The position numbers were made by a program, and so were the translations under genes. Below are positions 1,116 through 32,581 of a DNA stretch of 43,867 nt, one piece after another. Source of the stretch: an uncultured Clostridia bacterium (GTDB lineage: Bacteria > Bacillota > Clostridia > Oscillospirales > Acutalibacteraceae). Position 1 is the first letter of the stretch; each line of letters begins with the position of its first letter. Location: contig CAMHJC010000006.1 of NCBI GenBank assembly GCA_946185345.1, positions 1 to 43,867 of the forward strand. The letters are read 5' to 3'. The notes beneath the pieces were generated by a model, which saw only the letters and a list, made by a program, of their open reading frames with translations, did not search any database and was not told where the DNA came from.

Positions 1116-1865
1116 CTAAAATTTCCAGGTGATAAAGAGCAGGACTCCGCCAAGGATAATACTTGCCGCTGATACGAAAGTGAATTGATCGATGAAAATT
1201 GACAGAATCGACCACGAAAAAAACAGAACCAAAACCAGCACCGTTACCAATATCCGCCCCAGCAGCGTCGTTACAGGCGTATGAGCGCTCATAAGAGAAT
1301 ACAGCTGTTGTTCCATCCCGTTTGGTTCGTTATCCGAATCCTGCTCGGCTTCCGTTTCCCGGGAAAACTCCTGTTTCCCCTGAAACGGCTGACTGAATGC
1401 AGCCGCATCCGCTGGTTTTTCCTCCTTATTCGCTTCGGTTTTGCCTAAATTCTGCAGGATTCTCTCAACAAGCTTCGACTTCTCACCCGAATCAAATGAC
1501 TGGCGGTTGTAAAGCTCCGGAGGCAGATCATTCGTGGACATGCCTTCCAGATATGTGTAGATTTCTCCTCCGCTCTTGCGCTTGCCGAGTATCGCCGTCA
1601 GAAAAAACTCCCACTCGCTGTGCACCCATTCGGATTCTATATATTCCGGTCTGGTGCCCACTACAACGATTATTTTCGCCTGATCCAGCGCTCTGTAAAT
1701 TTCCCGTACAAATGCCGATCCGGACAAATCCTTTTCGCTGAAAAAGACCTGAACGCCGTTTCCCACCAGCGTCCGGTGCAGATCGGAGGCCAGATAATAA
1801 TCTCTGGTCAGTCCGCCTCCGTCATTCCTCCCTCGTTTAAATGAAATGAAAACCTCGCATGCCAT
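1116..1865 (-). CDS. TIR-domain protein with C-terminal membrane anchor
   Basis: A 249-residue protein. Residues 1-140 read as a TIR domain: EVFISFKR at the first strand, FFSEKD near residue 42, and WVHSEWEFF around 80-88. Glu84 in WVHSE aligns by eye with the catalytic Glu of NAD-cleaving TIRs such as SARM1 (WVHKE). Residues 145-195 are a charged, low-complexity linker. Residues about 203-224 and 228-247 are two hydrophobic segments, probably a hairpin membrane anchor leaving the TIR domain in the cytoplasm. It starts at an ATG preceded by ACGGAG and lies downstream of a paralogous TIR gene on the same strand. TIR domains act as NADases or signalling adaptors; which applies here is unknown. 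No recognised defence partner (Thoeris ThsA, short Argonaute, CBASS cyclase) adjoins it. Confidence 0.82.
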   Translation of the reverse strand: MACEVFISFKRGRNDGGGLTRDYYLASDLHRTLVGNGVQVFFSEKDLSGSAFVREIYRALDQAKIIVVVGTRPEYIESEWVHSEWEFFLTAILGKRKSGGEIYTYLEGMSTNDLPPELYNRQSFDSGEKSKLVERILQNLGKTEANKEEKPADAAAFSQPFQGKQEFSRETEAEQDSDNEPNGMEQQLYSLMSAHTPVTTLLGRILVTVLVLVLFFSWSILSIFIDQFTFVSAASIILGGVLLFITWKF

Positions 1866-1935
1866 TTTGCTTCACTCCGTTGAGATGATTATTTTTCCGT
1901 CGTAGAGCATCGTTCTGTCTCTGAGTATAATTGAT

Positions 1936-1990
1936 CCGAATAGTCCATAGTCCCCTTCGTCTCTGAATTCCGGCGAAGAGGACTATTCCG
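1936..1990. promoter_or_regulatory. Overlapping alternative hairpins between the two TIR genes
   Basis: The 130-base gap between the TIR genes contains ATAGTCCCCTTCG (1947-1959) facing CGAAGAGGACTAT (1974-1986), a 13-bp stem with wobble pairs. A second copy of AATAGTCC at 1939-1946 can instead pair with GGACTATT at 1980-1987. The two pairings exclude each other. Neither is followed by a T-run on the minus strand, so a plain terminator is unlikely. Function is unknown. Confidence 0.45.
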
Positions 1991-1996
1991 TTAATG

Positions 1997-3280
1997 TTAT
2001 TTTGTTTTCACCCACATAGCCGGACGCACAGAACCGTTATTGAGATTGACAAAATCACCCTCGTCATAAACCGAGCCGCCGCTTGTTACATGTGAGGAAC
2101 GAGTCCCCGAAGAACCAGGCGTGCGCAGATACCACCAGCTTGCGGGCATGCCGTTGACCGTTTCCGTCGCATGCACAAAGCTTCCTCTGCTGATGGCATA
2201 AGATGTCACTTCCGCCTTTCTGTCGTCATTTCCGCTGAAATATTTTCTCGCTTCCTGTGCGCTAAGAGCGAAAATCTTATCCTGCGTTGACTCGCCGCCG
2301 TAGGTATTGAATTTGGAGTTTGACGGCGTGGTAACGGTTGAGGTCAGAATCAGCGACTGGTCACCCGAGGAAAAGGCCGTATTCAAAAATGTACCGTTCA
2401 TCCATGTCCTCAGTGAACAGTTACTCCATGTGACACTGGATCTGCTGCTGTTGTATTTGACGCAGTCAAGCGATTTTTCCGAAATAACCAGCGCCCTGCC
2501 GTTCTCCACCGCGAGCACACGCCATTCTATCGACTCCGGCGAACTCGAATTCTGCGGATAGCTGCCAAAGGAAAAATGCGTTCCGACGAAAAGATCGGAA
2601 AATCCTTCGGAAGATGACGAATCCGAGTCATCCTCATTGTCATATGTTTCGGTATCGTCATCATATAGTTCGGTATCATCATACGTTCCGTAGCCGTTAT
2701 TGTCGGAAAAATCCGAACCGCGGGACTGATTGGATATCACCACCGAGGCAAAAATGATTCCTCCAATCAGCAAAGCCACCGCTGCGACCGAGATGGCGGC
2801 CAGCTTTGCCTTTGCGGACTTCGGTGCTGGAGCCACATTCACCTGAGGCGATGTGTGCCTGAGATTGTAGAAAATCCTCTGCACCAGCTTTTCTTTCTGA
2901 GAAACATTGAATGAATCCAATCGACGCAGTGTCAGAGGCGCTTCACGGGGATCCATTCCCTCCAGATATGTGTAAATCTCACAGCCGGATTTGTTGCCGT
3001 TAAGAATTTCATTGTGGAACGAGCCCCATTCGTATTGGACGTACTGTGATTCCATATTGGCGCAGCTTGTTCCGACAACAATCAGAATTTTCGCCTCACT
3101 CAATCCCTGATTGATCTGATTGATAAATACGGCGGTCGAGATATCCTTCTCACTGAAAAAAACCTTCAGCCCCAGATCAGTAAGCGTCTGATACAAATCC
3201 TTGGCCAGATAGTAATCACGCGTCACTCCTCCGCCGCCTATTTTATTGCGCTTAAAGGAAATAAAAACTTCATATCCCAT
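1997..3280 (-). CDS. TIR domain - transmembrane - DUF6273-like protein
   Basis: A 427-residue protein in three parts. Residues 1-140 form a TIR domain closely similar to that of the neighbouring gene, sharing EVFISFKR, TRDYYLA, FFSEKD and EIYTYLEGM; Glu84 in YVQYEW occupies the catalytic-Glu position. Residues about 159-183 are one strong transmembrane helix after a lysine-containing stretch. Residues 186-228 are an acidic, Ser/Asp/Tyr-rich linker. Residues about 229-427 resemble DUF6273: FGSYPQ, IEWRVLAVENGRALVISE, LRTWMNGTFLNTAF, WWYLRTPG and a final VRPAMWV. The positive-inside rule suggests TIR inside and DUF6273 outside. The frame opens at GTG 3289, but ATG 3280 has AGGTG at good spacing. 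It could be a surface sensor signalling through TIR. No function is known for this architecture as far as can be told from sequence. Confidence 0.82.
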   Translation of the reverse strand: MGYEVFISFKRNKIGGGGVTRDYYLAKDLYQTLTDLGLKVFFSEKDISTAVFINQINQGLSEAKILIVVGTSCANMESQYVQYEWGSFHNEILNGNKSGCEIYTYLEGMDPREAPLTLRRLDSFNVSQKEKLVQRIFYNLRHTSPQVNVAPAPKSAKAKLAAISVAAVALLIGGIIFASVVISNQSRGSDFSDNNGYGTYDDTELYDDDTETYDNEDDSDSSSSEGFSDLFVGTHFSFGSYPQNSSSPESIEWRVLAVENGRALVISEKSLDCVKYNSSRSSVTWSNCSLRTWMNGTFLNTAFSSGDQSLILTSTVTTPSNSKFNTYGGESTQDKIFALSAQEARKYFSGNDDRKAEVTSYAISRGSFVHATETVNGMPASWWYLRTPGSSGTRSSHVTSGGSVYDEGDFVNLNNGSVRPAMWVKTK

Positions 3281-3312: not shown

Positions 3313-3341
3313 ATTTTACCATAGAATATAGAGAATTGCAA
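3313..3341 (-). promoter_or_regulatory. Promoter of the TIR-DUF6273 gene
   Basis: On the minus strand, TTGCAA (3336-3341) and TAAAAT (3313-3318) are separated by 17 bases. The start codon lies about 30 bases further on. The site faces the two TIR genes and lies beyond the metK terminator, so the pair has its own transcription start. Confidence 0.6.
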
Positions 3342-3419: not shown

Positions 3420-4616
<1,197 letters not shown>

Positions 4617-5835: not shown

Positions 5836-6546
5836 TCAACCCCTCCTTGAACATTCGTATCTGACATTGCTGTCCAGCAGCAGGGGCATAATTTCGTCCT
5901 TGCCGCCGACCGCAGCGATTTTGCCGGCAGTCAGCAGAATGATCTGTTCGGCAAAGGAGAGTATCCTCTCCTGATGGGAAATGATCATAATGCTGCCGTT
6001 TGTCTTTTCGTACATGCGCTCAAAAACCTTGATGAGACTCTGGAAGCTCCACAGGTCAATGCCGGCCTCCGGCTCGTCAAATATCGTAAGCTTGGTGGAA
6101 CGCGCAAATGCCGTGGCAATCTCAATGCGCTTGAGTTCGCCGCCTGAAAGTGATTCGTTGATTTCACGGTCAATATAATCCCTGGCGCAGAGTCCGACTT
6201 CCGAGAGATATTCGCAGGCTTCATCGAGGGACAATTCACGACCGGCCGCTATTGAAATGATATCACTCACCGTGATGCCTTTGAAACGGACAGGCTGCTG
6301 AAAGGCAAAGCTCACTCCGTTCCTGGCTCGCTCGGTGATGGACATGCCTGTGATGTCGGTGCCGTCAAGAATAATGCTGCCCCGGGTAGGGGTAATGATT
6401 CCCGCGATGATCTTGGCCAGAGTGGATTTGCCGCTGCCGTTCGGGCCGGTGATTGCGACAAATTTCTGATCGACTTTAAGATTTATGTCGTCGAGTATCG
6501 TCTTACCTTCCGATGTGACGTAAGACAGGTTTTTGATTTCGAGCAT
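5836..6546 (-). CDS. smsC: Fe-S assembly ATPase SmsC (SufC-like)
   Basis: ABC-type ATPase of the SufC family, 236 residues, without membrane segments. It shows Walker A GPNGSGKST near residue 35, the signature LSGGELKR, Walker B LTIFDEPEAGID, and the switch His in ISHQER. SufC-type ATPases drive conformational change in the SufB-like scaffold rather than transport. The ATG at 6546 follows AAAGGAAG. It is the first gene of a two-gene unit with smsB, with its own promoter. Confidence 0.93.
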   Translation of the reverse strand: MLEIKNLSYVTSEGKTILDDINLKVDQKFVAITGPNGSGKSTLAKIIAGIITPTRGSIILDGTDITGMSITERARNGVSFAFQQPVRFKGITVSDIISIAAGRELSLDEACEYLSEVGLCARDYIDREINESLSGGELKRIEIATAFARSTKLTIFDEPEAGIDLWSFQSLIKVFERMYEKTNGSIMIISHQERILSFAEQIILLTAGKIAAVGGKDEIMPLLLDSNVRYECSRRG

Positions 6547-30536: not shown

Positions 30537-31199
30537 TTACTTCTGGTTGCGTTTTTCGGGTTCTCTGCTGTTGTAGTCCCTATTGATGCTGTCGTTCCAG
30601 CCTTCGATTTTGTTGCCGGATCTCATGCTGCCTACGGTACAGCTTACAGCGTCAAACACGACTGATGTTCCCTTTCTGTCAGCGTGATAGTTCACCGCAC
30701 GGTCTGCGCCGATTCCGATGCGTCCGGCCGTCTGTACAGCGTCAATGTTGGCGCCGATAAAGAGAAATTCCCAGCCGTATTTCTCCTTTTCGTGCTCGAT
30801 CATCTTCTTGACCTTGTCTCTGCTGTAGCGGTGGCTGGCATTCTCCATGCCGTCAGTGGTAATGACAAACATCGTATGCTCCGGCACATCTTCCTTGCGG
30901 GCGTATTTGTGGATGTTGCCGATGTGGTGAATGGCGCCGCCGATGGCGTCGATCAACGCCGTGCAGCCTCTCACTGTGTAATCTTCCTCTGTCATCTTTC
31001 TGACTTCGCTCAGCTTCACCCGGTCATAAAGCACTTCGCTCTCGTTGTCAAAAAGGACAACCGATACATAGCACTCGCCTTCCTGTTTGCGCTGTTTCTC
31101 AATCAGGGAATTGAATCCTCCGATGGTGTCGCTCTCAAGTCCTGCCATTGAGCCGCTCCTGTCCAGAATGAATACCAGTTCCGTCATGTTGTTTTTCAT
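30537..31199 (-). CDS. VWA-domain protein (TerY-like)
   Basis: A cytoplasmic von Willebrand factor A domain protein of 220 residues. The metal-ion site is intact: VFILDRSGSMAG (DxSxS at 13-17), the Thr in RGCTALIDAIG near residue 92, and VITTDGMEN near residue 131. It has no signal peptide or transmembrane segment. Such stand-alone VWA proteins resemble TerY of tellurite/stress gene sets, which assemble complexes through metal-dependent contacts. The frame opens at TTG 31202, but ATG 31199 has GGAGG at eight bases spacing. It lies 155 bases downstream of a macro-domain gene on the same strand, with a TATAAT at 31281-31286 that may give it its own start. The actual function is unknown. Confidence 0.88.
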   Translation of the reverse strand: MKNNMTELVFILDRSGSMAGLESDTIGGFNSLIEKQRKQEGECYVSVVLFDNESEVLYDRVKLSEVRKMTEEDYTVRGCTALIDAIGGAIHHIGNIHKYARKEDVPEHTMFVITTDGMENASHRYSRDKVKKMIEHEKEKYGWEFLFIGANIDAVQTAGRIGIGADRAVNYHADRKGTSVVFDAVSCTVGSMRSGNKIEGWNDSINRDYNSREPEKRNQK

Positions 31200-31354
31200 C
31201 AATAAAACCTCCGTATGATAATATTTGTGCGGTCTTTCGGAAAAGCTCTCTGCTTACCGTTCCCTTGACCTTGCTCCATTATTATACACGCAGAGGAATC
31301 GTATTTGGTCGCCTGCCGGGCGACATCTTCGCTTTTTTGAAAATCAATCATCCG

Positions 31355-32386
31355 CTAGGCTCCCAGCATCACCTGATCGAAGGAGAACAGCACCTCGTTG
31401 ATTTCGAATATGTCATATTTCTTGTTTTTAATGAAATATTCCACAATTACATCAAATTTATTGCTGTGCGAAAGAGCAAAACCTGCCTTCATGAGCATGT
31501 CTCTGGTCTCGTCCAAAGAAAGCTCCAGCGCTATGGCAAAGGCCAGAACCGTGGCTTTACTGGGTTTGTAATTGACATTGCTGCGGATCTTGGAAAAGAG
31601 TTTGCGGTCGATATTCGCCTTTTTATAGCACTGGGCGTCGCTCATGCCGCGCTCGTCGATCTTGCGGAGCAGCATCTGCGAAAAACTCTCGTCTAGAGTG
31701 CTGAGCATCTCATCCAGACTTGGCTCGCCACAGGGAGCGCTTTGACACAACGCTTTTTCCTCCGGAGCCTGACCTGCGACCGACCGGAAATGCATGCCGT
31801 GCATTCTCTGCGGAGCGGCGTCAAGAACCACAGAGGAATTTCTCGGCAGAAAATGAGTTTCGATATAGTGCTCGTCAATATATTCCTCCACATCGCTGAT
31901 CAGTTTCTTGCTCGCCTGAAAACCCAGTTTGTCATAAACGACCAGGTAAACCGTCATTTCGTTCCTGAGAAGAAAATCGGTTATCTCGCTGACCGCAATC
32001 TGAAGCGCCTCTTCCTTGGGATATCCGTATGCACCGGTTGAAATCAGCGGAAAGGCCACCGATTCGCATTTGTATTTCACCGCAAGGCGCAGGGATTCGC
32101 GGTAGCATGACGCCAGCAGTTCGGATTCTCCCGACCTGCCGTTCTGCCAGACCGGCCCGACCGTGTGAATGATGTACTTGCAGAGCATGTTGCAGCCTTT
32201 TGTCACCTTTGCTTGTCCGACTTCACATCCGCCCAGCTTACTGCATTCCCTGTCAAGCTCCGGCCCTGCTGCCCTGTGTATGGCGCCGTCCACGCCTCCG
32301 CCTCCGGCAAGCCATCGGTTGGCTGCGTTCACCACTGCGTCGCACTGTATTTTTGTGATGTCGTTGCGAATGATTTTCAGCGGCAT
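31355..32386 (-). CDS. Macro domain protein with C-terminal HTH-like domain
   Basis: A 343-residue protein. Residues 1-170 form a macro domain of the MacroD/YmdB type: VVNAANRWLAGGGGVDGAIH with Asn20, Asn22 and Asp33, then IIHTVGP, and the phosphate loop PLISTGAYGYP near residue 113. Members remove ADP-ribose from proteins or deacetylate O-acetyl-ADP-ribose. Residues about 225-340 are helical, and RKIDERGMSDAQCYKKANID followed by LFSKIRSN and ALELSLDETRDML read like a helix-turn-helix (XRE-like) region. The fusion hints at an ADP-ribose-responsive DNA-binding protein or a docking module. The frame opens at 32494, but the promoter and GGGGTGAAAG support ATG 32386. A VWA gene follows. Confidence 0.85.
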   Translation of the reverse strand: MPLKIIRNDITKIQCDAVVNAANRWLAGGGGVDGAIHRAAGPELDRECSKLGGCEVGQAKVTKGCNMLCKYIIHTVGPVWQNGRSGESELLASCYRESLRLAVKYKCESVAFPLISTGAYGYPKEEALQIAVSEITDFLLRNEMTVYLVVYDKLGFQASKKLISDVEEYIDEHYIETHFLPRNSSVVLDAAPQRMHGMHFRSVAGQAPEEKALCQSAPCGEPSLDEMLSTLDESFSQMLLRKIDERGMSDAQCYKKANIDRKLFSKIRSNVNYKPSKATVLAFAIALELSLDETRDMLMKAGFALSHSNKFDVIVEYFIKNKKYDIFEINEVLFSFDQVMLGA

Positions 32387-32422
32387 TCTTTCACCCCGTT
32401 CTGTTGTCTTTCTTTCATATGA

Positions 32423-32451
32423 ATTATATCCCGTCGATAAACAAAAGTCAA
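32423..32451 (-). promoter_or_regulatory. Promoter of the macro-domain gene
   Basis: TTGACT (32446-32451) and TATAAT (32423-32428) on the minus strand are 17 bases apart, putting the transcript start near 32416, 30 bases before the chosen start codon. Confidence 0.7.
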
Positions 32452-32581
32452 TCGTGAAATGACGCTGCGGATGCTTAACAGAATATTTTTTCATTTTTTC
32501 TCAAAGCTCTTTTAATTTCCGGCGGCATGGTATATAATAGTATTTGTATGTAATTATTTGTCAATATCGGAGATGATAGCC

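Follow-up and report, generated by a model that had tools for sequence, protein, structure and literature searches.

A 43,867-nucleotide stretch of DNA from an uncultured Clostridia bacterium (Acutalibacteraceae; assembly GCA_946185345.1, contig CAMHJC010000006.1), here called the window, carries two neighboring genes for TIR-domain proteins, TIR-A and TIR-B. On balance, we think that TIR-B is best explained as a membrane receptor with its TIR domain inside the cell and a lectin-like DUF6273 domain outside, whose binding face was shaped by a diversity-generating retroelement (DGR), is now frozen in this genome, and probably serves in defense. Across the 18 genomes of the genus that we compared, the recurrent unit is the TIR-DUF6273 architecture alone and not the TIR-A/TIR-B pair.

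Architecture and topology of TIR-B

TIR-B is 427 aa long from its ATG (1997..3280, minus strand; the mechanical open reading frame has a GTG start three codons 5′ of this ATG) and joins a TIR domain, a single transmembrane helix, an acidic linker and a DUF6273 domain. The TIR domain (~residues 1–142; 2855..3280, minus strand) matches Pfam TIR_2 over residues 5–128 with 29.8 bits against a cut-off of 28, and the DUF6273 domain (~residues 226–426; 2003..2605, minus strand; delimited by Pfam and a structural model) matches PF19789 over residues 260–425 with 99.4 bits against a cut-off of 23.5. Hydropathy places the helix at residues 163–181 (2738..2794, minus strand), with basic residues on its TIR side and acidic residues on the other, and the 47-residue linker after it contains 16 acidic residues and 1 basic residue. 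A helix separates the two domains in 18 of the 31 TIR-DUF6273 rows compared (one row partially copies another), and 14 of these 18 come from the genus. In 17 of the 18, all but L073, the TIR side is the more positively charged, suggesting that the TIR domain lies in the cytosol and DUF6273 outside.

Glu84 of TIR-B (codon at 3029–3031) occupies what we take to be the position of the catalytic Glu of NAD-cleaving TIRs, in the helix after the third strand. It is present in TIR-A, in TIR-B and in all 31 TIR-DUF6273 rows; across all TIRs examined, 50 of 63 have Glu, 11 have Asp and 2 have a gap. In an AlphaFold model of TIR-B built on a 30-row alignment (mean predicted local distance difference test score, pLDDT, 76; predicted template modeling score 0.55), Glu84 lies within a helix spanning residues 79–93. 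The TIR part (1–140) scored pLDDT 38–89 per ten-residue block with strands and helices alternating in a TIR-like order, DUF6273 scored 94–99 from residue 231 on, and the linker was modeled below 50 over long stretches. An earlier, sequence-only reading of this DNA had proposed these domains, the membrane anchoring, the acidic linker and the Glu at position 84, all of which held, and had considered a TIR-in, DUF6273-out topology, which the charge bias supports; together the domains, the charge-based topology and the conserved Glu84 support its idea of a receptor with a TIR effector.

DUF6273 is described as a C-type-lectin-like domain in PMC10743442 (papers given by PMC number are cited from excerpts), and on that paper rests the putative role of the TIR-B domain as a C-type-lectin-like ligand binder. 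When DUF6273 was compared with solved structures by sequence profile, the single match at E up to 1 was an IgA protease; the N-terminal domain of such an IgA protease is called DUF6273 in an excerpt of PMC12402451.

DGRs acting on TIR-DUF6273 genes

A scan of genome contigs with a reverse transcriptase (RT) alignment gave 76 loci, one of them in genus genome G006. A repeat-finding script that tolerated mismatches at template adenines only found template/variable repeats in 39 of the 76; under stricter limits the count was 37 with A as the permitted base, and the controls with C, G or T in its place gave 0, 1 and 3. At three of these loci, template and variable repeats together with an RT show that TIR-DUF6273 genes are DGR targets, and Pfam confirmed TIR_2 and DUF6273 in all four targets. 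The variable repeat lies within a TIR-helix-DUF6273 gene in an uncultured Eubacterium (L185; 21 mismatches, all at A) and in a member of the Clostridiaceae (L187; 16 mismatches at A, 1 other), while in a member of the Erysipelotrichaceae (L189) two helix-less TIR-DUF6273 targets surround the RT (mismatches at A/other, 21/3 and 18/5). A record named Emergencia sp. 1XD21-10 (L252) has the plan of L185 beside an RT split over two reading frames.

At other RT loci DUF6273 is fused to SIR2_2 (L190), YobI-ATPase (L206) or KAP_NTPase (L214). L190:91–4430 is a DGR with two DUF6273 targets, one of them SIR2-like (adenine mismatches 15 and 19, others 1 and 2), and at L206:2001–4586 and L214:2304–4571 the DGR targets join YobI- or KAP-type P-loop NTPases to DUF6273. 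TIR-DUF6273 genes occur in 5 of the 76 genomic RT loci and a TIR in 0 of 80 viral RT loci (80 contigs kept of 83 with related RTs), counted with a custom TIR profile that misses some TIRs. Leaving G006 aside, the best segments of relatives of the TIR-linked RT are up to 60% identical to it when they come from genome contigs, and no more than 46% when they come from viral contigs. Separately, kinase, von Willebrand A and PP2C phosphatase genes stand beside a DGR-type RT and several DUF6273 genes at L198:713–12034, which looks like a multi-gene conflict system.

Within the genus, we identified at least 27 TIR-DUF6273 genes in 13 of the 18 genomes (22 in 12 others and 5 in the window genome), counted from fetched regions with custom profiles that do not detect every TIR; Pfam revealed a TIR domain in L045 and C42, which were then included, and L068 of G005 is, by eye, probably one more. 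RVT_1 matches were found in 8 of the 18 genomes, 7 of them above the cut-off. At G006:C81 a 350-aa RT (P0003) lies downstream of a TIR-DUF6273 gene, preceded by an open reading frame that matches bAvd weakly and in part (23.7 bits; cut-off 40), and RT or Avd remnants lie beside TIR-DUF6273 genes at G017:C322, G002:C1 and G011:C27. G006:C81 and G017:C322 yielded no template repeat, and the DGRs there therefore look dead.

A codon footprint as expected of DGR mutagenesis

The seven intact DGRs of relatives were used to map the equivalent of the variable repeat onto TIR-B (2033..2113, minus strand; 20 codons, residues 390–416). The 20 DGR columns, defined as template-adenine codons in at least three of the seven DGRs, were examined in 38 non-redundant genus DUF6273 domains, a set that shares no member with the seven. 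Entropy averages 3.24 bits over the 20 columns, 1.53 over the other 173 and 0.73 over 20 columns interleaved with them. The share of E, K, Q, M and W is 9.8% at the DGR columns as compared to 29.5% in the 20 most variable others (mean 2.93 bits), and the third base is a pyrimidine in 174/242 fourfold boxes at DGR codons and in 1541/3005 elsewhere (nominal p = 4.5e-12 for entropy and 4.7e-10 for the third base, relatedness ignored). Domain pairs less than 30% divergent outside the 20 sites (67 pairs) differ at codon positions 1/2/3 by.61/.59/.25 within the sites and by.18/.13/.35 elsewhere; the pairs were drawn from all loci then fetched, and one pair is a gene fetched twice. Positions 1 and 2 thus vary with the third base kept in the genus set, and the footprint has the marks that would be expected of AAY-templated mutation. 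In the TIR-B model the equivalent sites map onto a loop-strand-turn-strand-loop.

The two near-identical gene pairs of G001 and G017 (L064/L065 and L094/L095) differ by 0% and 5% at the variable sites, so these copies look frozen, and recent DGR activity in the genus was rejected since the copies barely differ there. Outside the genus, L160 and L161 differ at 47% of the variable sites and at 1% elsewhere.

How TIR-B would work, and its probable DGR history

As a single-pass receptor, TIR-B would combine a cytosolic TIR effector with an outer DUF6273 ligand binder whose binding face would be the hairpin of ~residues 390–416, which is placed like a DGR variable repeat and in its make-up largely resembles one. 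A DGR acting on TIR-DUF6273 genes would have randomized such faces in this lineage; the window genome, in which we found no DGR, would carry a frozen copy in TIR-B. Binding of a ligand (a phage particle, envelope damage or a neighboring cell) would cluster the TIR domains, which might then cleave NAD+ or make a nucleotide signal via Glu84, and this action would stop growth of the cell. TIR-A, a member of the same large family, would be a membrane TIR that has no sensor, is independent of TIR-B and was inserted next to it.

Several results weigh against this account. The window genome (a 2.5-Mb draft in 176 contigs, 93% complete) has no RVT_1 match, and no Avd or RT remnant was found within the window. 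In TIR-B alone the third-base signal is not significant (a pyrimidine in 6/10 fourfold codons and in 42/91 outside), and one of its 20 DGR-equivalent sites is Glu. DGR remnants were seen beside only 4 of the 27 genus TIR-DUF6273 genes, within the fetched flanks. Nor is an outside sensor universal: 13 of the 31 rows lack the helix, one of these 13 being a partial copy of another row. In a search of the order with the L185 protein (394 genomes), 38 genomes had a match at 1e-60, either to the TIR chassis or to the sensor part; 20 fetched regions showed no RT, Avd or template repeat, and when their DUF6273 domains were put to the third-base test the counts were 38/55 as compared to 494/863 (p = 0.09). 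DGR linkage is therefore a minority state, and a general DGR link is weakened.

A DGR in the genome of the window was rejected, as no RT was found there, and TIR-B was not identified as a DGR target (no RT in the genome and no remnant in the window; no search was made for a template repeat in the rest of the genome). Since the genome has no RT match and the codon signal of TIR-B is not significant, we read TIR-B as probably a frozen descendant of DGR-diversified receptors and not a current target. The same two observations would also fit a hairpin made hypervariable without any DGR in the lineage of the window, through recombination or ordinary positive selection at a lectin binding site. We consider that history improbable: the codon marks of the genus fit AAY-templated mutagenesis (positions 1 and 2 vary with position 3 kept, a pyrimidine is favored as third base, and E, K, Q, M and W are few), remnants stand beside members in four genus genomes (G006, G017, G002 and G011), and the TIR tree places TIR-B together with the DGR-linked G006 gene in a clade with support 0.85.

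Defense or other signaling

A TIR-DUF6273 protein could also be a signaling receptor without a defense role, in which the lectin-like domain reads glycans, a host surface or the envelope of the cell itself, while the TIR domain is a scaffold or makes a housekeeping signal. The absence of any recognized defense gene among the neighbors tested and of any NCBIfam defense model at cut-off would suit such a role, as would the fusion of DUF6273 to protein kinases in the window genome, the match of DUF6273 to the N-terminal region of a solved IgA protease (PMC12402451), and the 18 TIR_2 matches of the genome (16 above the cut-off), which are spread over many contigs. We nevertheless think it rather unlikely, since DUF6273 is joined at RT-related loci to SIR2, to KAP and YobI NTPases and to TIR, and since Glu84 is kept in 31 of 31 rows. 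Those effector domains form a set known from conflict systems, and hypervariable faces would fit a moving target better than a self ligand. A probable defense role, acting through a candidate NADase, is part of the explanation that we prefer.

TIR-A and its relation to TIR-B

TIR-A (249 aa, ATG start; 1116..1865, minus strand) has a TIR domain (Pfam TIR_2, 44 bits; cut-off 28) followed by a C-terminal membrane anchor of two helices, placed by hydropathy at residues 205–223 and 228–246 (1128..1253, minus strand). No sensor domain was found in it, and its anchor has no convincing relative among the loci fetched for comparison (best other E 0.07). The TIR parts of TIR-A and TIR-B are 50% identical over 156 residues (E = 6e-47), so their likeness is not due to chance. 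The two genes lie on the minus strand between a gene for an S66 peptidase (25–987) and metK, which encodes S-adenosylmethionine synthetase (3420–4616).

The spacing of 131 bases, the shared strand and the 50% TIR identity, along with another tandem in the genus at G011:C17 (of two TIR-DUF6273 genes), would fit a two-part system in which TIR-B is the receptor and TIR-A its amplifier. We see little chance of this. The S66 gene is present in all 18 genus genomes and lies 57–513 bases from metK with no TIR match between them in 12 of the 17 others; in the remaining 5, metK is outside the fetched stretch and the site was not resolved. A search of all 18 genomes with TIR-A showed no second case of TIR-A and TIR-B together in the 17 others. 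The closest genus TIRs to TIR-A are those of a TIR-DUF6273 gene of G005 (68%) and of a gene on contig C43 of the window genome (66%) that looks broken, as compared to 50% for TIR-B, and the TIR-A anchor lacks a convincing relative among the fetched loci. In a tree of 46 TIR sequences, TIR-A groups with the G005 and C43 TIRs, apart from the group that holds TIR-B. The latter group has a support of 0.85, a value that does not extend to the group of TIR-A, and support is weak at deeper nodes (0.69 and 0.15).

A conserved two-gene system was thus rejected, because the pair is unseen elsewhere in the genus and its members lie in separate tree groups. Since no TIR gene occupies this site in 12 genomes, both genes appear to be family members that were inserted there. 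The sequence-only reading was right about two TIR genes with Glu84 and their anchoring, and its receptor idea is supported, but its treatment of TIR-A and TIR-B as a pair finds no support within this genus; the co-occurrence check that it had proposed itself found no second genome with both.

The locus and neighboring genes

TIR-A and TIR-B may share one transcript. A promoter-like site 5′ of TIR-B (3313..3341, minus strand; TTGCAA-17-TAAAAT with TG) was identified by consensus match alone, in a region where 7 such sites were found and 4.0 are expected by chance. Six neighboring proteins were tested: the S66 peptidase, S-adenosylmethionine synthetase, a SufBD core protein, an ABC ATPase, a permease and an FG-GAP protein. 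Five have no PADLOC match. The sixth, the ABC-type ATPase (5839–6546) adjoining the SufBD-core gene, matched 17 PADLOC models, best mad3 (86.7 bits), which we read as a shared ATPase fold. None of the six matched ThsA in PADLOC, and the sequence-only reading had noted no known TIR defense partner adjacent to the two genes; on the TIR-A side only one gene is visible because the window stops 1.1 kb past TIR-A. For TIR-A and TIR-B themselves no NCBIfam defense model came near its cut-off (ThcB4, 23 bits; cut-off 220), and the best PADLOC match was ThsB, over 46 residues with 26 and 24 bits.

No direct repeats were found at the borders of the pair at the settings used, and mobile-element ends flanking it were therefore rejected. 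A phage or plasmid origin of TIR-B was rejected as well: a scan of IMG/VR, sensitive to close relatives only, gave 0 matches, and the 2 matches in phage records and 1 in plasmid records are confined to the DUF6273 part. Elsewhere in the window a macro-domain gene (31355–32494; Pfam, 153 bits) stands beside a gene that is von Willebrand A-like by eye (30537–31202; no Pfam match at 0.001), and a link of the macro-domain protein to TIR products through ADP-ribose is possible.

Related TIR and DUF6273 genes in the genome, genus and order

The window genome has 10 DUF6273 matches, and 3 of its 5 TIR-DUF6273 genes are interrupted (C50, C79 and C115). Beyond the TIR-helix-DUF6273 form it encodes a helix-less TIR-DUF6273 protein (C42) and multi-helix TIRs (C50 and C57). 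Contig C102 carries a gene that joins a TIR, a membrane helix and BspA-type leucine-rich repeats and ends at the contig edge (L029:1–1317), the Toll-like receptor plan in reverse order, and contig C46 has two adjacent kinase-DUF6273 genes without a helix, one with two DUF6273 domains (L041:1726–6005). A distant N-terminal TIR (~25–34% identity to TIR-A) occurs in open-frame proteins of ~535–626 aa in many genus genomes (L007, L060, L061, L085–L090 and L097–L101).

Among the order-level regions, DUF6273 is found on 11 of 22 TIR open reading frames; other C-termini are RCC1 repeats (Pfam; L409, L410 and L417), leucine-rich repeats (L418), or other or cut. The chassis in these regions (L402–L421) begins with what looks by eye like a zinc ribbon, followed by TPR, TIR and, in most cases, a membrane helix before its varied C-termini, and L418 combines a TIR, a helix and BspA-type leucine-rich repeats as on C102.

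Comparison with known systems

A literature search for a TIR domain together with DUF6273 found nothing, and no title among the matches listed in broader searches concerned TIR-DUF6273 receptors. Term searches of related DGR papers returned no 'firmicutes', 'clostridi' or 'duf' in PMC10907252, no 'tir' or 'duf' in PMC8144416 and no 'TIR' in PMC10053308. Going by these literature searches, TIR-DUF6273 receptors with a DGR link appear to be new to the literature.

The closest counterparts that we found are other DGR-diversified sensors. TIR is among the DGR-target domains of multicellular bacteria, described as putative antigen sensors (Dore et al. 2024, PMC10907252), cyanobacterial variable proteins carry kinase, TIR and other domains (PMC7517822), and FGS domains are tied to DGRs in ternary conflict systems (PMC7159879). 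As excerpted, these systems share with TIR-DUF6273 proteins a C-type-lectin-like variable domain joined to conflict-type effectors, DGR-made diversity and putative invader sensing, and the first two also share TIR as an effector. They differ in that the lectin-like domain here is DUF6273, in Clostridia and relatives, that one common form spans the membrane once and has a TIR but neither STAND nor MoxR domains in its chain, and that many genus copies look frozen. In gut phages, the variable region of DGR targets is reported to sit in DUF6273 (tentaclins, PMC10743442; Faecalibacterium prophages, PMC11792537), but those targets are phage proteins, whereas here DUF6273 is the putative sensor of a cellular TIR protein. 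If our explanation holds, DGR-diversified conflict sensors extend past multicellular bacteria and cyanobacteria (PMC10907252, PMC7517822), and DUF6273 may be an exchangeable recognition module common to phage proteins and bacterial receptors.

It is possible, and we say so tentatively, that gut- and rumen-type Clostridia have a diversifiable counterpart of Toll-like receptors, a family of membrane TIR receptors whose outer lectin-like face was randomized by DGRs and later fixed as a repertoire of frozen paralogues, up to a handful per genome; after loss of the retroelement, such TIR-receptor paralogues would be much like a germ-line receptor repertoire. The best-studied TIR systems sense from inside, and to our knowledge little is known about phage sensing at the bacterial surface before DNA entry. 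A membrane TIR with a hypermutation-shaped sensor would be a testable surface immune receptor.

TIR-B shares with Thoeris ThsB/ThcB and other TIR NADases a TIR domain and the position of the catalytic Glu; its matches to ThsB and ThcB4 are weak, and unlike Thoeris it has a membrane anchor and sensor in the same chain and shows no ThsA-type match among the six neighbors. Animal Toll-like receptors resemble TIR-B in having an outside sensor, one membrane helix and an inside TIR, and differ in that their domain order is reversed and their sensor is of another kind, while the TIR of TIR-B is probably an enzyme. This likeness would be one of plan and not of descent.

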